In this document: piece by piece, positions 1 to 16,900 of the stretch
Numbering within the stretch: the stretch's first letter is position 1
How the letters are laid out: each line of letters opens with the position of its first letter
Virus record (IMG/VR): IMGVR_UViG_3300025131_008586
Location: 1-28,853 of that record
Length of the DNA: 28,853 nt
Direction: 5' to 3' (one strand)
Origin: a virus
Program-made: the position numbers and the translations under genes
The notes under the pieces: model-generated
What the model was told of the DNA's origin: nothing
Databases searched by the model: none
The model's input: only the letters and a program-made list of their open reading frames with translations

Positions 1-629
1 TGCGTGAAGGTGAAGGAAGGCAGAGCAGAGAAAACAGGGGCGTCTACGTGCCCAAATACGGCAGGCCTCCCCGAGGAGGGAAAGTTCCGCGTCTCCCGTT
101 CGAGCCACCGCATAAGCCGGCCGTTGCTTGGGGGCAACTGGAGGGCGGTCTCCACTTCTTGTCGGTTAGCCCGCCACGAGCGTTGCACTGAAGGGGGTGG
201 GTTCGCTATCGGCTGGGTCAGCTTGGGGGTTCCCGCCACCTTGAGTAGCTGCGGGAGGCAGTGCAGGGGCCCGAGGGAGCAGTTGTTCGCGCAGCCCTCT
301 GACAGCACGCGGGCCATCATGGTGCAGCTGGTTGCAGCTCGGTGCGCCGTCGCGACGCGGAGCTGCATGCCCTGGTAGTACACCCGTGCGTAGTCCCCGC
401 TCTCCTCGAGCTTCGCCAAGTCCTCCCACAGCTTGATTGCGGGGCTGATGGGGAGGGAGAAGGTGACGCTGAGGTTGTCCTTCGCGGATTGCGCCACCAT
501 GCCATCGTGGGGGAACGCAGCGGAGAGCTCCGTCATGAAGTCCCAGTGGCGCTCCTGCGGCAAAAGGAAGGCCGCTGCAGGAGCCAGATGGTAGTCGCTG
601 AGGAAGGCGTAGTACTCTACGTCTTGCAC
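1..629 (-). CDS. Unknown protein downstream of the reverse transcriptase (partial, runs off left edge)
   Basis: An open frame of about 209 codons runs from a GTG at 629 to the window edge with no stop, so the C-terminus is missing. The start has a good ribosome site (GAGG, 7 bases before GTG) and overlaps the RT stop by 13 bases, so it is probably translationally coupled to the RT. The protein begins VQDVEYYAFLSDYHLAP. In the middle it has four cysteines within about 25 residues (pattern roughly C-x10-C-x3-C-x7-C), which could bind metal. No family was recognised, and there is no obvious signal peptide or membrane segment. Codon third positions are GC-rich, as in the neighbouring genes. Its position right after a retron-type RT makes it a candidate accessory or effector of that RT, but this is only inference from context. 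Confidence 0.72.
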   Translation of the reverse strand, partial: MQDVEYYAFLSDYHLAPAAAFLLPQERHWDFMTELSAAFPHDGMVAQSAKDNLSVTFSLPISPAIKLWEDLAKLEESGDYARVYYQGMQLRVATAHRAATSCTMMARVLSEGCANNCSLGPLHCLPQLLKVAGTPKLTQPIANPPPSVQRSWRANRQEVETALQLPPSNGRLMRWLERETRNFPSSGRPAVFGHVDAPVFSALPSFTFT

Positions 630-1759
630 TTCTGTGCCTCGGCCGCGTCTGCATCCGCCTTGTCTTCCTCGTCCCACTTCTGGCGCTCGAGCTGTCGGTG
701 CTGTTCCAGCGCAGCGGTGAAGCAGTCGTGCAGAACGCCATAGCGGTGCTCCGTCAGTAGACCCTTCACATAAGCCAGGCGCCCGCGTAGGTGTGCGATG
801 AGGGCCTCCGGGGTGGTGATGCTGTGCTTGAGCTTCGTGCGCGCCTTCTCTACCTGAGAGGCGAACCCGAGGGCGCGGCAGTTGTGGAGGACGGCTCGAA
901 GCTGGCGGTACTGCTCTTGGGCCAGGTTGGCCTTCTCGTTCACTACTGCGCCGAGGACCACCTGCCTCTTCCAGTGAGGGGCTACACGGACCTTGTGGTG
1001 CCCCCACCCTGCGGCAGAGACAGCAGCGAGCACGGAGTCCTTGAAGCGGTCCGTGTCCTCCCGGTTCAGCAGCTGTGGGTGGCCCATGTAGACGTTGTCG
1101 GAGTAGCGCGTGTACTTCCACCCAGCCGCGTTCGCGAGCTCCAGGATGGATTGGTCCAGCTTCCAGTCCGCGATGCGGTTGGCGAGCGCGGGGCTGGCGA
1201 CGGTGCCTTGGGGCATGAAGCGGCGCTTGCGGCTCGTCCCGGAGACGATGTCGGTCACGCAGCAGAGCTGGCCGATGATGTTGGCTGCCTGCCGCGGGAA
1301 CCCGAGGTACTCGTAGTACGCGCGTATCCAGCTCAGACGAATCGACCCGAAGAAGTTCTTCAGGTCGAACGAGAGCAGGATCTTGCTCCCCGCCAAGAGG
1401 TGCGCGGTGTCGAGGGGCTTCACGCCCGGCTCGTAGGCCCGGACGTGGTCCCCGACGGGGATGGGCTTCACGTATGTCTCTGCGAGCACCTTCTGGATGT
1501 TGCGCAGACGCGGCTCGGGGATGTGGATCTGCCGTAGCGCCCCGCGCTTGCCAGCTCGGCCGCGTTTCAGGATGGCCGCCTTGCGGTACAGGGAGCCGGG
1601 TTCCCCGGCTGGAATGCGGCAGCCTCGGACGGCCCACCACAGTGCTTTGGGTCGTAGGCCCATGCCGTACGCCAGCGACACGTCATCTAGGACGATGGGT
1701 AGCTGGGGATGTACGGGCTGGAGATGCAGCAGCGCTAGCTGGCTACTGTCGTAGGTCGC
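617..1759 (-). CDS. Retron-type reverse transcriptase, YSDN active-site variant
   Basis: RNA-directed DNA polymerase of the retron/abortive-infection kind, about 380 aa. Visible blocks in order: YRKAAILKRG with IPEPRLRNIQ (entry region); VRAYEPG; FDLKNFFGSI (motif A, about residue 131, first catalytic Asp); MPQGTVASPALANRIADWKLD (motif B, about 182); YTRYSDNVYMG (motif C, about 219); LGAVVNEKANL followed by YRQLRAVLHN (retron-like, about 269); and LRGRLAYVKGL (thumb). Motif C reads YSDN where retron RTs usually have YADD: the first catalytic Asp is kept and the second is Asn. I chose GTG 1759 because it has AAGAAGG 5-6 bases upstream and overlaps the preceding stop by only 17 bases. A TTG at 1804 in the same frame would add 15 residues, but its purine stretch is too close. 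Whether it makes DNA, and on what template, cannot be told. No retron RNA gene lies directly upstream, because that space is coding. Confidence 0.9.
   Translation of the reverse strand, partial: ATYDSSQLALLHLQPVHPQLPIVLDDVSLAYGMGLRPKALWWAVRGCRIPAGEPGSLYRKAAILKRGRAGKRGALRQIHIPEPRLRNIQKVLAETYVKPIPVGDHVRAYEPGVKPLDTAHLLAGSKILLSFDLKNFFGSIRLSWIRAYYEYLGFPRQAANIIGQLCCVTDIVSGTSRKRRFMPQGTVASPALANRIADWKLDQSILELANAAGWKYTRYSDNVYMGHPQLLNREDTDRFKDSVLAAVSAAGWGHHKVRVAPHWKRQVVLGAVVNEKANLAQEQYRQLRAVLHNCRALGFASQVEKARTKLKHSITTPEALIAHLRGRLAYVKGLLTEHRYGVLHDCFTAALEQHRQLERQKWDEEDKADADAAEAQKCKT
1317..1326. repeat. TACGCGCGTA palindrome, site 1
   Basis: Exact copy inside the RT gene, spanning codons for Ile-Arg-Ala-Tyr; it starts at the second codon position. 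See the finding on this motif. Confidence 0.6.
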
Positions 1760-2456
1760 CACTCTCGCCTTCTTCTGACAGGGGTGAAGGGACTCCGTCC
1801 TCAAACTCCTGGCAGCGCAGGAGGTACGTGGGACGGCCGATGAGACCGATCTGCCTCAGGCAGATGTCGTCGCCCAGGAAGCACTTGCCCTGGAGCATGT
1901 CGGTGATCTGCGGACACGCCATGCACACGGGCCGGATCTCCTCCCGGTACACCACCAATGCGGAGATGTCGGGGTTGAGTCGGTTCTGGATGGTGGGCAG
2001 ATTTGACGACGCTCGAGACTTCCTCCACCCGAAAGCAGCCAGGTACCTGAGCTCTGCGGTGTGGTTGGGGGACGTAGGATTCGTGCTCAGTTGCGTCGTC
2101 TTTGGCTTGTCGGACTTCCCTCGCGAGACCCCGAGTGTGGTCGGGACCACTACGTCCCACTCCGTGTGGAGAGAGGCCAAGACGTCGTCTGGGAGTAGCT
2201 CCTGGACGGTGCGAACGGGGCTCTGGGGCGTCTTCTCGTGACGTCCGTTGACCTCCGCGCTGAGGTAGTCGATCCCTCGCGGGAGGATGCGTTCCCAGAT
2301 CTTCGGATTCAGTCGCGTTCTCAAGTAGCTCGGGAACACGTTCTTGAACTGCTCCCGACGGGAGTAGTGGACCAGGTACAACTGGTCGAAGGGGATTCCA
2401 CATCGTGCTGCCTTGGTGAGCTTCAAGTGGAACACCCGTGCGGTGGGGTCTGTCAC
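1743..2456 (-). CDS. Unknown protein with a Cys motif, between the VWA-like gene and the RT
   Basis: 237 aa. The start is a GTG inside GTGA, overlapping the stop of the VWA-like gene by 4 bases, so translation is probably coupled. The frame stays open for about 280 codons upstream, but that part is only the shadow of the VWA-like gene. The N-terminal half is basic and aromatic (KIWERILPRGIDYL). The C-terminal part has C178-x2-C181-x10-C192-x6-C199 and a further C215, a spacing suited to zinc or an Fe-S cluster. The tail is acidic (SEEGESGDLRQ). No family was recognised. It lies between an ATPase-partner-type protein and a reverse transcriptase in one operon and may be a nucleic-acid-binding or redox-sensitive partner of either; this is inference. 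Confidence 0.75.
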   Translation of the reverse strand: MTDPTARVFHLKLTKAARCGIPFDQLYLVHYSRREQFKNVFPSYLRTRLNPKIWERILPRGIDYLSAEVNGRHEKTPQSPVRTVQELLPDDVLASLHTEWDVVVPTTLGVSRGKSDKPKTTQLSTNPTSPNHTAELRYLAAFGWRKSRASSNLPTIQNRLNPDISALVVYREEIRPVCMACPQITDMLQGKCFLGDDICLRQIGLIGRPTYLLRCQEFEDGVPSPLSEEGESGDLRQ

Positions 2457-4923: not shown

Positions 4924-5598
4924 GTGCTCCGCAACCGCGCCATAGAGCTCCTGACCGCACGCGACACCCTCGGCATCGTCCTGTCTCTCGCAGCGGATGA
5001 GCTCACCAGCGGTGCGCACGCAGCGTGGGAGACAGACACGTTGCTGCTCTTCCTCGAGGAGGAGGGTGCGCTCCCGGACGAGGAGCCTCGTGATCGGCTG
5101 CTGGCTGTGACTGCAGTGCGGGCGAATCCTGCGCACCTGTGGGACGCTCGCGTCTTCGAGAATCTGACGGAGACCCTCAACGGCCGCATTGCGGTCCCAG
5201 AGTCCGTCAACGGCATCGAGATTGGCGAGGCGTGCTGGACCGTCGCGGAGTCGCAGCTCATCGCCAAGCACTACGAGGACTGGAAGGGTGACCAGCCGTA
5301 CGGAGACGAGACCGCTGCTTACGTTGCTGCGTTGTGTGCGTCGAACGGTCTGGTTCTCCTTCCCCCAGAGCTCTCCTTCGCGCAGGACGCGCTGGACACG
5401 CTGGTCCCGAAGGTGGGCCGCGAGGAGAAGCTAAAGGAGGACGTCCTCGCCCGACTGCGGAGTGCGACGCCCCCGCCGTATGACGAGGACGACGCAGTCT
5501 GCGTTCAGGCGAGGATTCTCCAGGAGGCGGGGCTCTACGTCAGCACGTTGCGGACTCTGCTGACCGAGCAGCTAGCCCTCGGCGGCGTCCGCCTCTAG
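4924..5598 (+). CDS. Unknown protein following the 337-aa gene (224 aa)
   Basis: Acidic, helix-rich protein beginning VLRNRAIELLTARDTLGIV. I chose GTG 4924, one base after the preceding stop (TGACGTG). A GTG at 4894 in the same frame would add ten residues and overlap the previous gene by 29 bases; neither start has a clear Shine-Dalgarno sequence, so the choice is open. The stretches TDTLLLFLEEEGALPDEEPRDRL and DALDTLVPKVGREEKLKEDVLARL look amphipathic. No catalytic motif or family was recognised. It is probably co-transcribed with the 337-aa gene, and its last 27 bases overlap the end of the convergent zinc-ribbon gene. Confidence 0.78.
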   Translation: MLRNRAIELLTARDTLGIVLSLAADELTSGAHAAWETDTLLLFLEEEGALPDEEPRDRLLAVTAVRANPAHLWDARVFENLTETLNGRIAVPESVNGIEIGEACWTVAESQLIAKHYEDWKGDQPYGDETAAYVAALCASNGLVLLPPELSFAQDALDTLVPKVGREEKLKEDVLARLRSATPPPYDEDDAVCVQARILQEAGLYVSTLRTLLTEQLALGGVRL

Positions 5599-7640: not shown

Positions 7641-8855
7641 TTACTGACCCTTGGCTGCGTCGTCGACCAGGGAGCTCTGCACGCTCTCGAGAGACCCGAG
7701 GATCTCCAAGAGGACGGGCTGGTACCCCTTGGACTGCTTGAGGAAGAGCTGGAGCTGATTGGTCCAGCGGCGCTCGTCGCGGCCTTCGGTGCTGCAAATT
7801 CCCTGGAAGATGACCACACGGAGCTCGTTGGGCAGGTCCTTCAGGAACTGCACGAGGTTGTTCGCCAGATCGGAGTTCGGCGTGGGCAGCGAGGAGCGCA
7901 ACGTCGCGGTCACGTTGTCGCAGAGCGATGACAGGATGTCGAGGCGGCCCTGCTCGATCGCTTCGAGGCAGCGTTTCCGGACCTTGCTCTTCTTCTTGGC
8001 GTAGTTCTCGATGACCTCGCTCGGGTGGATGAGGATCTGGTTGTTCTCCATGAAGCGGAGGAACTCGTCCGAGGGGACGTCCCCAATCAGACCCGAGACG
8101 ATGGGCTCGAGGGAGTTGATGTTGATGGAGCCGTCCTTATCAGTCTGGGACTTCAGGACATCGCTCACCTTCTCCCAGCTCGCGGGGGTTGCGTACACGA
8201 GGCCTGCCTCGCGTCGCTTGGTGTCGAGCAGCATCTCCCCGTTGGCCTGGATGTACTGGATGACGATGGAGTGGAGCTCGCGCTGCTCCGCGTACTTCAG
8301 CCACTCGGTCCGGTCTTCCCGGACGGCGATCCAGACGACGCGACGCCGAAGCGCAGGGTCGTTGGTCAGGGATGAAGTGGCGTACTCACCACCGGATGGG
8401 TTCATCGCCAAGGCGAGGCACCACTTGTCCCCGAAGTCCTTTCGGAAGGTGTCCATCATTGCGAAGGCCGCCGCTGCGGTCTCCGTACTGGCCCGGTTGA
8501 GCTCCTCGAGGACGATGACACCGCCTTTCGGGTACTTCTTGGGGAGGTCTGCGAGCTCCGAGCGCATCAGGTAGTCGTAGGCGGTTCCGTCCTCGCGGCG
8601 GAAGGCCAGACCCTGGATGTCCTCGGGCATGCAGGTCTGCAAGTACAGCCCCACGTAGCCGCCACCGCGGTCCTCCTCGCCCTCTTCTCGAAGACACTGG
8701 GTCTTGCCAATACCGGCGTGACCCACGAGGGCTGGGAACAGCCCTGCGTCGAACGCGATCTTGACTGCACGGCGTGCCTGCGCCACCGTGAGGGGGCTGA
8801 CCCCCATTTCGTCCCAGAAGTTCTTCTGAGACTCGGACTTCTCTTGGTTGCTCAT
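7641..8855 (-). CDS. MoxR-type AAA+ ATPase
   Basis: 404 aa from ATG 8855 (MSNQEKSE); a TTG at 8864 in the same frame is possible. Walker A VGHAGIGKT at about 44-52, Walker B GVIVLEELNRAS at about 112-123, sensor-like ALAMNPSGGEY at about 152-162, and LRRRVVWIAV as the arginine region. The AMNP motif and LEELNRA are typical of MoxR-family ATPases, which remodel or assemble protein complexes with a VWA-domain partner. That partner is probably the HExxH/VWA-like protein at 2453-3874, separated from this gene by two plus-strand genes and the helicase. The C-terminal third is helical and not recognised. It diverges from the terminase gene with almost no gap. Confidence 0.88.
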   Translation of the reverse strand: MSNQEKSESQKNFWDEMGVSPLTVAQARRAVKIAFDAGLFPALVGHAGIGKTQCLREEGEEDRGGGYVGLYLQTCMPEDIQGLAFRREDGTAYDYLMRSELADLPKKYPKGGVIVLEELNRASTETAAAAFAMMDTFRKDFGDKWCLALAMNPSGGEYATSSLTNDPALRRRVVWIAVREDRTEWLKYAEQRELHSIVIQYIQANGEMLLDTKRREAGLVYATPASWEKVSDVLKSQTDKDGSININSLEPIVSGLIGDVPSDEFLRFMENNQILIHPSEVIENYAKKKSKVRKRCLEAIEQGRLDILSSLCDNVTATLRSSLPTPNSDLANNLVQFLKDLPNELRVVIFQGICSTEGRDERRWTNQLQLFLKQSKGYQPVLLEILGSLESVQSSLVDDAAKGQ

Positions 8856-10475
8856 AAAATCCAAGCGTCGAGACGCCAGTTAGCGGAAACGCTTCTCTGG
8901 CTGGAAGGAGACCGTTTCAGTCTCCGTGACTACCCCATGTATGACGCTATCTACAGGGGAAGTTGGCGCCAGACGTTGATGAAGTGCGGGCGCCAAGTCG
9001 GGAAATCCGTCTCGGCTGCTGCGCACACGATCATCGACGCCGTAGCGCGACCATATTTTCGTACACTCTACGTCAGCCCTACGCTGAAACAGACGTCCGC
9101 CTTCTCGAATACGCGCGTAGCCAAAATGCTGCGGCACTCACCCAAGCTGAAGAACGTCTACCTAGACCCGTCCGCTCCGGACAACGTCTTTCTGAAGATT
9201 CTGGCTAACGGGTCCGAGCTCATCTTCTCGTATGCCTCGGACGACCCGGACCGAGCTCGCGGCTACTCTGCTGATCGCATCAACTTTGACGAGATCCAGG
9301 ACATCCTCTACGACGAGGTCGTCCCGGTGGTGTCGGAGTGCGCTGCTAACTCGCCCTACGGGTACTTCGGGTTCACTGGGACCCCGAAGACGATGGAGAA
9401 CACCATCGAGTTTCTCTGGTCGCAGTCGACGCGCGGCGAGTGGTGCGTCAAATGCGAGGGGTGTGGGTCCTACTCCTACTACGTGAGCGACGACGGCGTC
9501 GGCAAGAAGGGCGTTGAGTGCCTCAAGTGCCGCAAGTACGTCAACGTCCGCAACGGGATCTGGGTGGACATGAATCCCATCCCCCCAGGTACAGACCCGG
9601 CTTCTCCGGACGCGGACCGCATCAAAGGGTTCCACATCCCGCAGCTGATCCTGCCTCTGAATTCGGAGCGAGCTGACCGCTGGTCTAGGATTCTCACCAA
9701 GCACGAGAAGTACACACCCTCGGACTTCAAGAACGAGGTCATGGGCGTGTCGGACTCCATCGGTGCGCGGCTCATCTCGTTGGACGAGCTCCAGGCTTGT
9801 TGCGAGGAGCACACACTGGACACGGCTCCCTCCACGGCGGTGACTCCACCGACAGCGAAGAGCATCGTCCACGTCGTAGGCGGCGTGGACTGGTCCGGGG
9901 GCGGCAGCGCTGGGCACTCCCGCACCGTTGCGTGGATCTGGGGAATCGATAGTGGTGGGCGGCACCACTCGCTGTGGTACCGCATCTTCCCCGTGGTGAA
10001 TCCCGTCGACACGGTCGACGAGATCGCTCGAGTCTTCTCGCTCTACAACGTGAGCCTGGCGTTCGGCGATGCGGGTGAGGGGCACCTCGGCAACAACCTG
10101 CTCATCAAGAAGCTGGGTCCCCAGCGCGTCTGGCAAGTGCAGTACGGGAGCGCGGAGGGTTCGGGAAGCCACCTGAAGTGGAACGGGAAGGACCGCTACA
10201 TGGCGGACCGAACCACCATGATCGACAACTTCCTCTACAACGCCAAGACGGGACTGTACCGGTACCCCAACCACAAGCAGTCGGCTCCGGTGTTCGCGGA
10301 CATGCTCTCCGTTTACGAGGAGCGTACACGTACGGGGAAGCGCGTGTGGCGGCATCCCCCGTCCGTCCCGGACGATGCTCTGCATGCGCAGATCTTTGCG
10401 TGGCTGGCGGGCAAGGTCCGTCGTAACGACTTGTCCTTCTACAACCAGGACTCAGATTCTAGCCTAGTGGCGTAG
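8844..10475 (+). CDS. terL: Terminase large subunit (TerL)
   Basis: The DNA-packaging motor ATPase and headful nuclease, about 543 aa from TTG 8844. Near the N-terminus: LAETLLWLEG, then Walker A CGRQVGKS (about 48-55), coupling region YVSPTLKQTSAFSNTR, Walker B INFDEIQD (about 146-153), and FTGTPKT as motif III. A zinc ribbon CVKCEGCG...CLKCRKY lies between the ATPase and nuclease domains. The nuclease has VGGVDWSGGG, AFGDAGEGHLGNN and PDDALHAQIF, giving the acidic residues of the RNase H fold. The frame is open upstream to 8718, but that part lies in the divergent MoxR gene. There is no ATG, GTG or TTG between 8855 and the conserved N-terminus, so the start is uncertain. TTG 8844 would overlap the MoxR start by 12 bases. 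Confidence 0.93.
   Translation: MVAHKIQASRRQLAETLLWLEGDRFSLRDYPMYDAIYRGSWRQTLMKCGRQVGKSVSAAAHTIIDAVARPYFRTLYVSPTLKQTSAFSNTRVAKMLRHSPKLKNVYLDPSAPDNVFLKILANGSELIFSYASDDPDRARGYSADRINFDEIQDILYDEVVPVVSECAANSPYGYFGFTGTPKTMENTIEFLWSQSTRGEWCVKCEGCGSYSYYVSDDGVGKKGVECLKCRKYVNVRNGIWVDMNPIPPGTDPASPDADRIKGFHIPQLILPLNSERADRWSRILTKHEKYTPSDFKNEVMGVSDSIGARLISLDELQACCEEHTLDTAPSTAVTPPTAKSIVHVVGGVDWSGGGSAGHSRTVAWIWGIDSGGRHHSLWYRIFPVVNPVDTVDEIARVFSLYNVSLAFGDAGEGHLGNNLLIKKLGPQRVWQVQYGSAEGSGSHLKWNGKDRYMADRTTMIDNFLYNAKTGLYRYPNHKQSAPVFADMLSVYEERTRTGKRVWRHPPSVPDDALHAQIFAWLAGKVRRNDLSFYNQDSDSSLVA
9110..9119. repeat. TACGCGCGTA palindrome, site 3
   Basis: Exact copy inside the terminase gene (Asn-Thr-Arg-Val); third codon position. 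Confidence 0.6.
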
Positions 10476-10479
10476 TGGT

Positions 10480-10496
10480 ACGATTTCGCCGCAGCC
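10480..10496 (+). repeat. Direct repeat, copy 1 (after terminase stop)
   Basis: ACGATTTCGCCGCAGCC, 14 of 17 bases identical to copy 2 at 10631. The first eight bases are identical and two of the three changes are G in this copy against A in the other. The similarity runs on weakly on both sides (CGTnnnGG before, GC-rich after). Confidence 0.45.
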
Positions 10497-10630
10497 TGCA
10501 GCTCTTCGCAGCCCAGTTTCAGTTGCGAGCAGGAGCGAGTGCACCCGAGCGACGCACTCGGAACTGAGCAGTTACTACGAGCTCGTGACGAGCTCTGCTA
10601 GTTTGTTAGTGCTACCACCACGTGAGGGAC

Positions 10631-10647
10631 ACGATTTCACCACATCC
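10631..10647 (+). repeat. Direct repeat, copy 2
   Basis: ACGATTTCACCACATCC, the partner of the copy at 10480, 151 bases downstream. It lies between the 10579-10595 hairpin and the downstream stem-loops. Confidence 0.45.
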
Positions 10648-10739
10648 CGCGGGCGCCTCTCCGGAGGTACCGACGAGGACTCCAGCTGACACGCTGGCCC
10701 GCACGAGCTCCAGGGGGGCCTGGCCCCGGGAATTACTGT

Positions 10740-10756
10740 GAGAGCGGTGCGCTCTC
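10740..10756 (+). terminator. Possible transcription terminator after the terminase
   Basis: GAGAGCG-GTG-CGCTCTC, a perfect 7-bp stem with a 3-base loop, then GGCTTCCATTTTGCTTCT. The T-rich tail starts a few bases late, so this is a weak intrinsic-terminator match. It lies between two convergent genes, where a terminator is expected. Confidence 0.4.
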
Positions 10757-10793
10757 GGCTTCCATTTTGCTTCTGTCCCATCGGTGAGACTCA

Positions 10794-13700
10794 CTAGGCG
10801 CGGGTCTCGAGATCTTCTTCTTGTGCCAGAAAATCGGCTCGGTGTTTCTTGAGGTACTCGCCCAGCTCCATCTTCTCTCCGTACGAAGGCCCGACGTCCA
10901 CGTCGTAGGGCATGCCCACTGGCATGTCGGGGAAGGCCTCCGTGATGTGGTCGTCGATGCGCAGCTTCAGGAATGCCGTCAGCTGAGGGAGCAGACGCCT
11001 TGGCATCTCCAGGCACATCGAGTCGTGCACGGTGAGCAGCAGGCGAGCGCAGATCTCTCTGCGGAACTTCCCGATGTTGAGCATGCACGACATGACGATG
11101 TCGCTGCAGTAGGACTGCACCAGGAAGTTGACGCCCTGGCGCTCGTTGCGGCCCTGCATCCAGCGACCGATACGAGCCATGGGGAACCTGCGGAACCGTC
11201 CGTATGGAGTGGACACTCGGAGCTTCTTAGCGATCTCGCGGTGCGTGTCCTGGATGTACTTCCGGATGAGAGGGAAGCGGGTCATCAGCTTGTCGATGAT
11301 GATCTGCGCCTCCCGTTCGTCGACGCCAATCTGCTCCCCGATAGTGGTGGCTCCGGCTCCGTAGATGGTACCGAAGACCACACGCTTCGTAGCGTCGCGC
11401 AGGTCGGCCATCTCCGACCCCTTGACCTTCCTCCCGGTGTCCACAGCTTTGTAGTCGAGACCGTGGATCTCCGCAGTCATCCAGGAGTGCATGTCCTGCC
11501 CCCCGTTGAGCGCAGCAAGGAGAGCGGGGTCCTGCGCGTAGCGACACAACACCCGGACCTCAGCGCCCGCGAAGTCTAGGTCGACCCAGATGAGCTCGTC
11601 GCCTTGCACCCAGCCGTACTTGGCGGCCACGGCCAGGGCTTTGCGGGTGGCCCACCACTCGAGTTGGTGGATGGGCGTAGGGATGAAAGCCTTCTTGATG
11701 TTGATGCTGCCCAGCATGTAGGGCACGTTCTGAAGGTTGGGCGTTGCTGACGAAGACCGCCCCGTGGCCGTTCCATTGATGTGGATGTACCCGTGGATGC
11801 ACCCATCGATGGAGGACAGCTTCAAGTACGCCTTGATGTAGGTGTTGTTGGCCTTGCCGAGCTGCCTCCAGTCCAGGAGGTCTCGGGCGATGTCGTAGCC
11901 CTTCTCGATGTACTCAGCCAAGACGTCCTTCGACATCGAGGCCTGCCCCGTATCCGTGCGCTTGACGACGGGCAGCCCGTACATCCCGATGAGGATGTTG
12001 CCGAGCGTCTCTGGGTTGTTGAGCTTCACGTCCTCGTTCAGAGGCAGCCCTACATCGTTGAAGAGCTTCTCCCGTATGGAGAGGGCGAGCCGCGACACCT
12101 CGGCGCTGATCTCGGTCTCCAGGCTTTCGAGGTAGGTCCGGTCTACGTACACGCCCTCGGCCTGCATCTCGGACAGCAGTTCCGTCAGCGGCAGGTAGTG
12201 CCGAGTCATGAGGGTCAACAGGATTGGTCGAAAGCCTGCCTGACCGGGCGGATCCTCTTTGTACGCGCGTAGTCGCTGCTGTCGGGAGATCCTCTTGGTC
12301 ACGTCTGCGTCGATAGCTGCGTAGACCGACAGGACCGGGACCTTCAGGTCCTCATAGGTCGCCGTGCCTTCGCCGTCGGAGCGCTTGATGCTGTTGTGCT
12401 TCTGGTGCTCAACCCCGTACTTCCGGACCTTGCGGTCGAAGTCTTTCTGGAGGGCCTTCTCGTCCTTGAGGAGCCGGGTCAGCGCCTTCGTGCTCTGAGA
12501 CAGCGACGCCTTGCGGGCCCTGAAGGTCTTGGAGTCCATGTCCGGGTACGCCTTGCGCGTGTACCCACGCCACAGGCCTCGGTAGTAGTCCCGGTCCTTC
12601 TCTATGAGATCCGAGCGCTCTGCAAAGGCCGTAGACGGATCTAGGGTGACCAGATGATCTTCCTCTAGGAAGACCTCCAGCCCCAGCGGGGCTCGGCGCG
12701 CGGGGGCTGCCAGCCCTTCAAGGAGCTCGGCGGTCTCTGCATACGACGCTTCCTCGAACTCCCTGTCGAGGGCTGCCTCGTATCCGGAGAACTCGGGCAA
12801 GTAGTCGGCGACCACGACTTTCAGTCCGTAGAAGCCCTTCTTGTCCTCGTCCAGGAGGTGCTCGCCTAGCAGCCCGTCCCACTTGGTATTGGCGATTCCG
12901 CTGACCTCGAGGATTTCCTCTAGGGTCTTCCCTACGATGCTCTCGAGGCGTTCCCGGTAGCCGGGGTCCTCGCACAGCTCCCGCAACGCGGGCATCAAGC
13001 TGCAGATGAACATCTGCAAGTCGAACTTATAGTTCCACCACGTCTTTGGGTGGGCAGACATCGTGATCTTCAGAACGTAGGGCAGCGCCTCCGTCCAGTC
13101 GTACGGGCTCTCCCGGTGGTTCAGGAGGATGGCGCATGCCTTGTTGGTGTCCACGGACGCGGAGAACATGATGATGCGGGCGCCCGTGGACCACGGGATC
13201 TTGGTGTTGGTCTCCGTGTCGAGGGCCATCAACGTGTTGTCGAGGGTCTTGCCCTCCTGCGTATAAGTCGCGTACTCCTCGGCTATGGCCGCGACTTCCT
13301 CGATCGTTTGCGGCATCTCGTAGAGCTCGCTGAGCTCCTCGAGGTTGATGGTGTGAGCGATCCCGGCGACCTCTTTGGCAGCGCGGGCGATGTCGTTCTT
13401 GAGGACGCTGTAGAGGCCCGCATCCTCCTTCTTCAGGAGGGCCACCGGGCTCACCGTGGGCACTACCGGGAACTGCTTCCCACCTACTACCACCGAGAGC
13501 GTGGATCCCCTGAGGGTCTTCACGCCTCCGGTGATGCCGAGGCCGCGGAACGCCAGGTTCCCCATCGCCACGATGACGTCGGGGTTCAGCTGAAGAATGG
13601 TGTGCCGCGTGTAGGCCACGGCGCACTGGTTACTGATTTTGCTGTTGGGCTTGGTCTCTGTCGCGCACTGGATGGCGTACAGGTACGTGCGCTGCGTGAG

Positions 13701-13955
13701 CGCGGTTCGCATCGGCTTGTCGAAGACGCCGATGGTCGGGGTGCGCGCTTCCTCGCCAACCAGGTCAGCCACGATCTTCGTGACGATGGAGCTGGCTCGG
13801 TCGGTGAAGTTCTTCCCCCGTATCCGGCCACCCCAGCTAGCAGGACGACCGAATAGGAAGAGTATTTTGGGGGTGGAGCTCCCTACGAAACCGTTGCACA
13901 TGGGCTGTTCGTATAGGGGGCAACCCACACACCCAGAGGGTTTGACGGAGGTCAC
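10794..13955 (-). CDS. polA-like: Family A DNA polymerase with N-terminal uracil-DNA-glycosylase-like Fe-S domain
   Basis: 1053 aa. Residues 1-200 match the layout of Fe-S uracil-DNA glycosylases: C9, C12, C97 and C111 as likely 4Fe-4S ligands, and NPDVIVAMGNLAFRGLG with KTLRG. However, the motif-A region reads FGRPASWGG instead of GEAPG, and TVSPVALL stands where HPSxLLR is usual, so catalytic residues appear lost. Then comes a 3'-5' exonuclease: LDTETN (about 245), WWNYKFDLQMF, LLDEDKKGFYGLK. The polymerase has motif A DLDFAGAEVRVL (about 792), motif B RDATKRVVFGTIYGAG and motif C LTVHDSMCLEMP (VHDS instead of VHDE). I chose GTG 13955, which overlaps the primase stop as GTGA; TTG 13973 is an alternative. 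This is presumably the replicative polymerase. Confidence 0.93.
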   Translation of the reverse strand: MTSVKPSGCVGCPLYEQPMCNGFVGSSTPKILFLFGRPASWGGRIRGKNFTDRASSIVTKIVADLVGEEARTPTIGVFDKPMRTALTQRTYLYAIQCATETKPNSKISNQCAVAYTRHTILQLNPDVIVAMGNLAFRGLGITGGVKTLRGSTLSVVVGGKQFPVVPTVSPVALLKKEDAGLYSVLKNDIARAAKEVAGIAHTINLEELSELYEMPQTIEEVAAIAEEYATYTQEGKTLDNTLMALDTETNTKIPWSTGARIIMFSASVDTNKACAILLNHRESPYDWTEALPYVLKITMSAHPKTWWNYKFDLQMFICSLMPALRELCEDPGYRERLESIVGKTLEEILEVSGIANTKWDGLLGEHLLDEDKKGFYGLKVVVADYLPEFSGYEAALDREFEEASYAETAELLEGLAAPARRAPLGLEVFLEEDHLVTLDPSTAFAERSDLIEKDRDYYRGLWRGYTRKAYPDMDSKTFRARKASLSQSTKALTRLLKDEKALQKDFDRKVRKYGVEHQKHNSIKRSDGEGTATYEDLKVPVLSVYAAIDADVTKRISRQQRLRAYKEDPPGQAGFRPILLTLMTRHYLPLTELLSEMQAEGVYVDRTYLESLETEISAEVSRLALSIREKLFNDVGLPLNEDVKLNNPETLGNILIGMYGLPVVKRTDTGQASMSKDVLAEYIEKGYDIARDLLDWRQLGKANNTYIKAYLKLSSIDGCIHGYIHINGTATGRSSSATPNLQNVPYMLGSINIKKAFIPTPIHQLEWWATRKALAVAAKYGWVQGDELIWVDLDFAGAEVRVLCRYAQDPALLAALNGGQDMHSWMTAEIHGLDYKAVDTGRKVKGSEMADLRDATKRVVFGTIYGAGATTIGEQIGVDEREAQIIIDKLMTRFPLIRKYIQDTHREIAKKLRVSTPYGRFRRFPMARIGRWMQGRNERQGVNFLVQSYCSDIVMSCMLNIGKFRREICARLLLTVHDSMCLEMPRRLLPQLTAFLKLRIDDHITEAFPDMPVGMPYDVDVGPSYGEKMELGEYLKKHRADFLAQEEDLETRA
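12262..12271. repeat. TACGCGCGTA palindrome, site 4
   Basis: Exact copy inside the polymerase gene (Leu-Arg-Ala-Tyr); second codon position. Confidence 0.6.
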
Positions 13956-16900
13956 GAAGTAGGAGCATCCCAATCGCTGAGCATTGAAGTTACGTCGAAG
14001 ACGGTGATGTCCGTGAGGCTCACGCCCACCTTGAGGTGAGCTTTGATGCCCCCAGGCATACGTCGGAGCACGCGGGGTTTCACCACGATGGAGGTCCCTG
14101 CTTCAGCGAGTTGCTTCAACCGGGACGCCGTTTCCTTCCGGTACTGCGGAACGTTCTTCAGAACGCCGTGCAGCGCGTCGGTCCACAGGACAATGAGCCA
14201 GTGGTGCTTCTCGAGAGACTCGGGGTCCGGGTTGAAGGCAGCGTAGTAGACGCCGCATTCAGCCTCGTTCAGGAGAGAGCGCTCCATCGGGTCCGAGAGG
14301 AGAGATCGAACGTTGGTGTGCCTGGTCTCTGTGCCGGGCTTCGTGTACTGGAGCTGCGCGGAGAGGATGTGCTCGAGGAGCGACCTCTCGTGCGAGGTCT
14401 GAACGACCTGCTTCAGCATCGAGGCCTTGCGCTTGACGAAGCGCATCACAAACTCGTGAGGGTCCCGCCCCAGCAGCGACATCAGCGCTGCGGGGATGAG
14501 CACCCCGTCCAAGTACCGACTCGGGACCTGGACACCTGCGTGCTCCGAGAGATTGTGCATGATCTCGTGGTTGGCGTAGATGCCGCGCAGCCACGAGATC
14601 TCCTGCAGGAGGGCGGGGACCTTTCGGAACATGCCCAGCGTGATGGCGCGCCGGGCTTGCTTGAACTCGTCGAGTGTGAAGAGTTTCTCCATCGTCGTCT
14701 TCGGGTTGGGGTGGCCCTCGACGATGTCCGTCTTGACCTGCACGAACCGGCTCACGTCGGCTGCGTCGCGCAGGTACTGAATGGCCGCGGTCCAGATTTG
14801 GCACCGCAGGATGTACTCTGTGGCCTCCACGCTGTCCATGTTGCCGCGCAGGATGCGGGCTTCCGGGTTCGAGGTGAGTCCTCTGATGTCTCGGAGGATG
14901 CCGCGTACGCTGGCACTGTGCGTGTCCGACCCCTGGTCCTCGAATTCGTCGAGCACCGCTCCTAGCGAGCAGTTGTTCATCTCCTTGCGAAACCCGGCCA
15001 CGGTGTAGCTGTCCATGGTGAACGCGGCCTCGAGGAGTCGGGTGGGCCCCGTCCCCGCCAGCAGCGCCAGCAGCGAACTCTTCCCGGACCCACGAGGCCC
15101 GTTGAGCATCGTGTACAGCTGCCGCGGCAATGCCGAGCAGACCGGGTTGATCATGATCGCTGCCGCTAGGTACTCCGCGTCCTCGTGCTGGTGCTTGAAG
15201 CGCCAGCCTGCGTTGAGCACGCGACAGATGAAGGCGAAGGTTCCTGGTAGATCCGCTCCCAGACCCTCATTCAGGTCGTCCAAGCAGGTGAGCTCTCGGC
15301 TCCACTCCTTGCGGCTCATGTTGAAGATGTACGACCCGATTTGGGGGCCGTCCAGCACTCTCCACGCCACCACCCCGCCTTCCTCGGGTATGCCGAGGTA
15401 TACGTCGTGGCCGTTGACAATGACCCACCTCTTCTCGAAGACCTTGCCCACCCGCACGTCGATGTAGTGGCACCCAGCCTTGAGCTCGCGGCGGTCCTTC
15501 ATTGCGGGCAGTGACCGAATCATCCGCGTGAGCGCTATGTCCACGTAGCGTTTGATGGTCACCTCTTGGTCGATGTACTTCACGGGAGCCTGGACCATCC
15601 CAGAATTCCCGCGCACCGACTTGAAGGAGATCCACGTAGGAATCCCGACGTGGACCTTCGCCCAATCCACGAACGTGCCAAGGTCCGCAGACAGCGTCGA
15701 GAACAGGTCGGAGGGGCGCGCGATGTGTGCTCGCCGAAGCGTCCGCTTGTCCTTGTGCCAGAAGGTGATTAGCAGCCCCGCGTTCGAGGGTGCGGTACCC
15801 AGGAACGAGTAGTGCTGCTGCAGCGCGAAGACCAGGCGCTGGATGAACCCCTCTTCGTCATCGTCCTTTCCTACGATGAGCGCCAGCAGGTCCGCGGGGC
15901 TGAGCCCCGTGAATGCCACGACGGAGTCGATGTACGCCTTTTGCTCAGCCGGATCGGTGAGGCAGCTGCCCACCGTAGCCGCGGCAGTCTTCAGAGCTCG
16001 AACGTCCTCGAAGTCGGCTCCCTCCAGCTCCCGCTGCAGACGCAACGTGGCCCACACGTGAGGCAGGATGAAGTGCAACCTCTTGTTGGTGTCGGGGTCG
16101 CGGTCAGAGACCGCCTTCAACCAGGCATCCCAACCGTGCTGCTTGATAGCGTCGTCGGGGTCCTTGGCCTTGATAGCTGCGGGCCAGGAGAAGATGCCAG
16201 CAGGCATGTTGGTGTGCTCGAGCCAGTTGCCCGCCACCTCGTCGCCCCCGTGGTCCGGAGAGTCCGGTACGAGGAGGACGCGGTCGATGCCGAACTCCTC
16301 CAGGTCATCCAGGTGCAGGTCGGTGTTGCCGCCCGTGCAGAGCACGATGTCGTAGGGCCGCTTGTCCTTCAGCTGCCCCATCATGTTCGTCAGGACGTCG
16401 AACTCCCCCTCTAGAATCAGCGCCTCCTGCACCTCGGCAGGTCCGCGCAAGCTGGCCCGATAGAAGCGCAGGCCGTAGACCCCGATGGGGTCCCCGTTGG
16501 GGTTCTTGACGTAGGAGATATCCCGGGACCCATCGGGGCGCAGGAAGTCAGCGCGAATCTTGAACCCCCCGATGGTGTTCGGGGTGTCGTTGTACGGGAA
16601 GATGAGGCTCCCGATGTACGAGGGGGTCATGTACGGCTTCAGGTAGTCGTAGGCGTGCTTGGCCAGGTCTGCCCCGATGAGCTCCGTGAAGTGTGCCAGG
16701 GGCGGGAGCACTCCCAAAGGGAGGTACCCGAGTAGCTTGGCCTGCGCGGGAATCCCTCTGGATTCGAGGTACTTCAGCGCGGGGAAGAAGATGGCGTACT
16801 TACTACTCTCGTTCTTGGCGTGGTAGGGCTCCACAGCCTTGAGCAGACTCTCCTTCGCCGCCTTGTAGATGAGCGACCTGACCTTGCCGAGTTGCTCCCT

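Follow-up and report, generated by a model that had tools for sequence, protein, structure and literature searches.

The window, by which we mean the whole stretch of DNA that was analysed, is one whole virus record of 28,853 bases. Within it, the gene for the terminase large subunit (terL) and a gene encoding a uracil-DNA glycosylase domain fused to a family A DNA polymerase (polA) converge on a gap of 318 bases (10476-10793), which extends from the terL stop to the end of the polA open reading frame (Table 1). The original prediction, made from the sequence alone, had singled out this gap as free of genes and rich in hairpins, and its description was borne out. Two perfect 7-bp hairpins with 3-nt loops (GAGCTCG.TGA.CGAGCTC and GAGAGCG.GTG.CGCTCTC) are present, as are a 7-bp stem with an 11-nt loop (10536-10560) and a direct repeat (10480-10499 and 10631-10650, 80% identity over 20 nt, pitch 151). 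When the gap was folded as a whole, it was unexceptional compared to shuffled sequences (z -1.09 on the plus and -0.87 on the minus strand). The case for a structured RNA therefore had to rest on relatives and on the true borders of the units within the gap.

Table 1. Features of the window in and around the terL-polA gap and the reverse transcriptase (RT)
Feature	Position	Strand	Remarks
Gene D (part)	246..584	-	conserved downstream of RT; sole matching stretch, 32% identity
Retron-type reverse transcriptase, 395 aa	617..1804	-	YSDN at YxDD site
Gene U, four conserved cysteines	about 1743..2450	-	conserved, just upstream of RT
Terminase large subunit (terL)	8718..10475	+	convergent neighbour of array
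Putative retron-type ncRNA unit 1, 152 nt	10471..10622	-	a1 10622-10613, G 10612, a2 10480-10471
P3 (msr-like) hairpin, unit 1	10579..10595	-	7 bp, 3-nt loop UCA
Putative retron-type ncRNA unit 2, 154 nt	10626..10779	-	a1 10779-10774, G 10773, a2 10631-10626
P3 (msr-like) hairpin, unit 2	10740..10756	-	7 bp, 3-nt loop CAC
UDG domain + family A DNA polymerase (polA)	10794..13973	-	convergent; upstream of array on RNA strand

Relatives were collected by TerL and PolA searches of viral contigs. Where terL and polA converge in these, 57 distinct gaps were found, which measure 128-2651 bases; in two further loci (L049 and L055) the genes overlap, such that there is no gap. Perfect hairpins with 3-nt loops and stems of at least 6 bp are strongly enriched in these gaps (134 versus 14.4 expected from shuffles), a frequent form having 7 bp and a G-C closing pair. 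Imperfect hairpins indicate the strand. Among 7-bp triloop hairpins with one non-Watson-Crick pair, read in terL orientation, A.C/C.A mismatches outnumber G.T/T.G by 24 to 4. This excess corresponds to G.U pairs on the opposite strand, and hence places the RNA on the polA (minus) strand. A second wobble count gave 11 versus 2 for 3-nt loops and 13 versus 8 for loops of 4-8 nt, while long-range helices (36 versus 42) carried no strand signal. Within the gaps, the 7-bp, G-C closed form with the loop NNA on the RNA strand has a density of 1.32 per kb, 60 times that in 0.54 Mb of sequence elsewhere, where it is 0.022 per kb.

In 15 of the 57 gaps, an extended -10-like motif, TGKTATAAG, lies near the polymerase stop. 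These loci contain 36 copies in total, without exception on the polA strand. The motif is found in seven of eight whole records, on one strand per record, and is absent from the window. Where it recurs (G001-G004, G007 and related loci), it does so three to six times per record, on the polA strand only.

To delimit the units, 75 such hairpins in the gaps were used as anchors, with the near-duplicates L004, L034 and L116 excluded. A closing helix with its short side 5′ and its long side 3′ of the hairpin on the polA strand reached a mean score of 18.5, versus 13.7 for shuffled flanks; the mirror geometry gave 13.8 versus 13.4. In 39 units the helix was equalled by at most 3 of 40 shuffles, and flanking Gs played no part in finding them. 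In these blindly found units, a G invariably follows the 5′ arm (a1; 39 of 39), and in 38 of 39 a G stands just before the 3′ arm (a2), which is preceded by AAATTCG, AAATACG, ATCTTG, AAACAG or a similar motif. On the RNA strand, a descriptor composed of both Gs and a required helix score of 18 matched 57 units, distributed over 27 gaps. The opposite strand of these regions gave 3 matches, and 1.08 Mb of sequence outside the gaps gave 6, both strands counted. A unit begins with the a1 arm of the a1/a2 closing helix and an invariant G, continues with a small hairpin, a second hairpin of 7 bp with a 3-nt loop and the variable msd, and ends in AAATCG and a2.

This scaffold stays in place across related units, while the RNA sequences themselves diverge fast. 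A set of 66 units, which leaves out L004, L034, L116, L010-L012, L042, L047, L066, L114 and units lacking a G-C closed P3 hairpin, folds with a mean z of -3.96, and 61 of the 66 lie below -2; TAGC is the commonest context of the priming-position G (14 of 66). The original prediction had proposed comparing relatives for conserved structure and compensatory changes, and both were found. Thirteen paralogous units (eight of the ten plus-strand units of L289 and five of the six of L311) were aligned with plain MAFFT. From this alignment RNAalifold, unaided, returned the closing helix (P1), a short P2 and the 7-bp P3 with its 3-nt loop, with at least one compensatory change in 16 of 17 pairs. The ortholog pair L013/L016 showed just three compensatory changes, with an unclean control. 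A conserved protein frame, which had been named as counter-evidence, did not emerge, in that the units are noncoding. In a few relatives, such as L095/L096, the terL-polA gap lacks units and looks coding by its third-position variation.

Three further gaps (L010, L011 and L012) carry tandem units of about 105 nt with another type of hairpin, namely A-T closed triloops, and a conserved CTAGTC/AACACGCA pattern. The RT score in these three loci falls below the Pfam cut-off.

The window gap accommodates two units of this design in tandem. In unit 1, a1 and a2 pair over 10 bp including one G.U (CGTGGTGGTA/TACCACTACG), the G stands in a TAGC context, and a2 overlaps the terL stop codon. Unit 2 has only 6 bp (GGGACA/TGTCCC) and the context CAGA. 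In both, a1 is spaced 17 nt from P3, and GAAATCG precedes a2 after the msd. Folded separately on the minus strand, the units have z values of -2.29 and -2.16, with 5 of 200 shuffles equally good for each, and the predicted fold of each shows the helices described here. Cut at its own borders, each unit thus beats most shuffles, unlike the whole 318-mer. The two hairpins noticed originally are the P3 (msr) hairpins of the two units, and the repeat ACGATTTCnCCnCA is the reverse complement of the msd/a2 junction, its pitch of 151 being close to the unit length. The minus strand, the two tandem units and the resemblance to retrons go beyond what had been noticed before.

Several other identities were considered for the gap RNA and rejected. 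Rfam, at gathering score and by E-value, gave noise only. A tRNA- or tmRNA-like RNA had no ARAGORN match, with no tRNA in the window and the same result in 24 loci. For a Y RNA/Ro60 system, a TROVE protein was found in none of 44 records. The idea of a donor template or antisense RNA was likewise dropped, in that gap 15-mers recur elsewhere in none of four genomes (G003, G005, G026 and G012). In G018, five gap 15-mers recur elsewhere, most of them from one stretch that ends in the motif before a2.

The window also encodes an RT, located 8.7 kb from the array along the same strand. Its top profile matches are retron RTs (PADLOC, NCBIfam), and among PDB entries the Ec86 RT is closest to it in sequence (E 1.2e-16). 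An AF2 model built from a 27-sequence alignment (pLDDT 93.7) was compared to the PDB, and the best 18 matches were all retron RT chains, a DGR RT ranking 27th. Thus, by profiles and by its predicted fold, the window RT is of the retron type. Its motifs are diverged. YSDN or YCDN is found at the catalytic site in the window clade and others, and about half of the relatives have YxDD; xLG replaces VTG in all 26 RTs (VLG in the window), and published variants of the VTG motif exist (PMC6868368). The window RT was also searched for NAXXH, a signature motif of retron RTs, which was not found. Since the signature motifs are not matched and the msDNA is a predicted product, we speak of a retron-type system rather than of a confirmed retron. 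Across the RT loci L157-L181 and the window, the catalytic motif divides the RTs into a Y(S/C)DN set, which includes the window, and a YxDD set.

On either side of the RT, most related phages have a conserved gene. Gene U precedes it, encodes about 200-274 aa in most loci and has four conserved cysteines, while gene D follows it, encodes about 420-576 aa and has eight invariant cysteines; in L276, such conserved cysteine-rich genes lie at 9342-10022 and 11055-12785. In the window, gene D is either cut by the window end or diverged. Neither gene matched a family in PADLOC, Pfam or PHROG, and a model of gene U had no PDB match at E<=0.001. A DUF2201 metallopeptidase/VWA protein is encoded upstream of the RT, and no known family of retron effectors was recognised among the neighbours.

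Across genomes, arrays and RT go together. Of 44 records, 25 contain RVT_1 (21 of 30 listed as array-bearing versus 4 of 14 others), many of the records being fragmentary. Thirteen contigs were scanned whole. Same-strand units that abut one another are present in seven of the eight with an RT (15 pairs) and in none of the five without (p 0.0047); the eighth RT-bearing contig, G023, has units, none of them abutting. An out-of-sample test of the link between RNA and RT showed that units can also lie away from the gap. Three are found at 117,587-117,987 in G036, an RT-bearing record in which terL and polA overlap; G032, which is RT-bearing and has a gap devoid of units, carries them at about 57-59 kb; and G003 has extra ones near 82, 128 and 135 kb. 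The scan showed no units in the RT-bearing G043 (33 kb).

When 80 loci were sampled by their RT only, unit clusters appeared in 17, several of which are phages already in the set. The new clusters (L283-L286, L288, L289 and L311) adjoin terL, with polA on the other side wherever it is in view; in L289, ten units are arranged in tandem on the RNA strand. One or more units stand directly before the RT, in the ordinary retron layout, in L323, L325 and L327, whose RTs are about 26-27% identical to that of the window. No unit was found in the RT-bearing loci L287, L291, L302 and L306, nor in most loci with other distant RTs. A search for hosts gave one remote match among genome contigs, and the cultured phages Arash and D69 (31% TerL identity) have an ordinary late-gene order after terL.

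Retron RNAs are described as having complementary ends and, where the a1 stem ends, a priming G in a TAGC or CAGA context, and the retron RT as binding a stem of 8 or 9 bp that carries a 3-base loop (PMC6868368). At the sequence level, the gap units match the published features point by point, with complementary a1/a2 ends, a G in the priming position, an msr hairpin with a 3-nt loop in both window units, and an RT of retron lineage by profile and fold matches. In the window, RT and ncRNA are not joined with an effector in a single cassette. Compared to Retron-Eco1 (Ec86), the units share the complementary RNA ends, the G after a1, a hairpin with a 3-nt loop like that recognised by the RT, a variable msd and a related RT. 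In contrast to Retron-Eco1, there are many ncRNAs per RT, which in most cases is kilobases away; the system is phage-borne, between terL and polA; the RT motifs are diverged; and new genes U and D, rather than a known effector, flank the RT.

Another comparable system is Retron-Nex1 (Ne160) of Nannocystis exedens, with several repeated msr-msd copies and no RT within a kilobase, although it is bacterial and no fixed place in a phage genome is described for it in the accessible part of the source, the likeness being drawn from that description (PMC6868368). Retron RTs have also been found in viruses, namely in three among the viral contigs of cold-seep sediment, but neither an ncRNA array nor a fixed locus is described there, as far as the accessible text goes (PMC10504277). 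A literature search, whose coverage largely left out subscription papers, gave no report of phage arrays of this kind.

Taken together, the gap very probably contains two retron-type ncRNAs (msr-msd), arranged as a tandem array on the minus strand and served by the phage's own retron-type RT. Two of the options offered originally, a noncoding RNA and a template RNA for the distant RT, are supported by the retron-type RT, the msr-msd anatomy of the units and the co-occurrence of array and RT across genomes. We infer that the array would be read from the minus strand after polA and cut into single RNAs, each of which would fold into the a1/a2 closing helix, the G, two small msr-like hairpins and the variable msd. 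Bound to the triloop hairpin, the phage RT would initiate from the 2′-OH of the G after a1, with the msd as its template, and thereby produce branched single-stranded DNA (msDNA), such that a single RT could make several different msDNAs from one array. Several points count against the reading as a retron array, i.e., the RT motif departures, the distance of 8.7 kb, the short a1/a2 helix and the CAC loop of unit 2, the lack of TGKTATAAG in the window, some RT-bearing loci in which no units were found, and the lack of a known effector nearby.

It is conceivable, if rather improbable, that the units are retron-derived structured RNAs with a decoy or regulatory function that are no longer reverse transcribed, the YSDN RT then being a binding protein only. 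The motif of the window clade indeed is without the second aspartate of YxDD, and rapid divergence on a constant scaffold would suit such RNAs. However, related RTs with arrays keep YxDD, and conservation extends to the priming G and to the motif that precedes a2, neither of which RNA-only decoys would need. Phage RTs often are those of diversity-generating retroelements (DGRs), and an RT is present, but the template RNA of a DGR or of another RT class is very unlikely to lie here, given the ranking of retron RTs over the DGR RT in the fold comparison and the profile matches to retron RTs. Moreover, the gap 13-mers do not recur elsewhere in the window, which speaks against a TR/VR pair, and 15-mers of related gaps do not recur in four of the five whole genomes examined.

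The packaging RNA of phi29 is a small structured phage RNA, as the gap RNA would be, and in most relatives the array has its fixed place beside terL. Apart from this position, nothing was found in support of a packaging RNA or packaging site for the terminase, which was among the original options. Units are absent where terL and polA overlap (L049 and L055), the array then lying elsewhere (G036); and, different from the phi29 RNA, the presence of the arrays follows the RT and not terL. For this last reason the packaging function was set aside as exceedingly improbable. Likewise, nothing spoke for an origin, which had also been suggested. Convergent genes need terminators, and the unexceptional fold of the whole 318-mer would agree with bidirectional terminators or chance hairpins. 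This account is hardly credible, however, in view of an architecture shared between units, with invariant Gs and compensatory changes, and of units that are also found away from terL and polA; no gap-wide T tracts were noted, and the co-occurrence of abutting units and RT in whole contigs contradicts it.

Retrons are known from bacteria as anti-phage systems, in which an ncRNA and an RT are combined with an effector. In the present case it is phages that carry such parts, largely in a fixed place beside terL and polA; each RT has many RNAs, and no effector was recognised. Judging from sequence, up to ten tandem RNAs per distant RT in uncultivated phages would amount to a new form of retron and, if true, to a virus-owned multiplexed one. 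This raises the testable question of what a phage gains from many short DNAs in the infected cell. The arrays would also provide a sizeable collection of naturally diverged ncRNAs that a single RT reads, of use for the study of RT-RNA recognition and for tools of single-stranded DNA production.

In known retrons, the RT-ncRNA-DNA complex holds a toxic effector in check (PMC12548924), and by analogy one might guess that the msDNA product serves counter-defence. Tentatively, the RT-msDNA complexes could act as mimics or decoys that restrain host retron effectors or other DNA-sensing defences. In a more specific and somewhat more doubtful version for this uncultivated phage group, one RT would make several to about ten different msDNAs as mimics that disarm defences, each unit being tuned to its own target. 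It seems less likely still that the RT-msDNA complexes and the conserved genes U and D make up a system by which the phage acts against competing phages or takes over its host.

A further observation concerns the RT reading frame itself. Unit-like structures lie inside it at 1210-1331 (minus strand) of L168, which is the same as 10177-10298 (plus strand) of L290, and at 5057-5172 (plus strand) of L170. They have a closing helix of 11-14 bp and a triloop hairpin, at a similar place in two phages, and may be a coincidence driven by the coding sequence.
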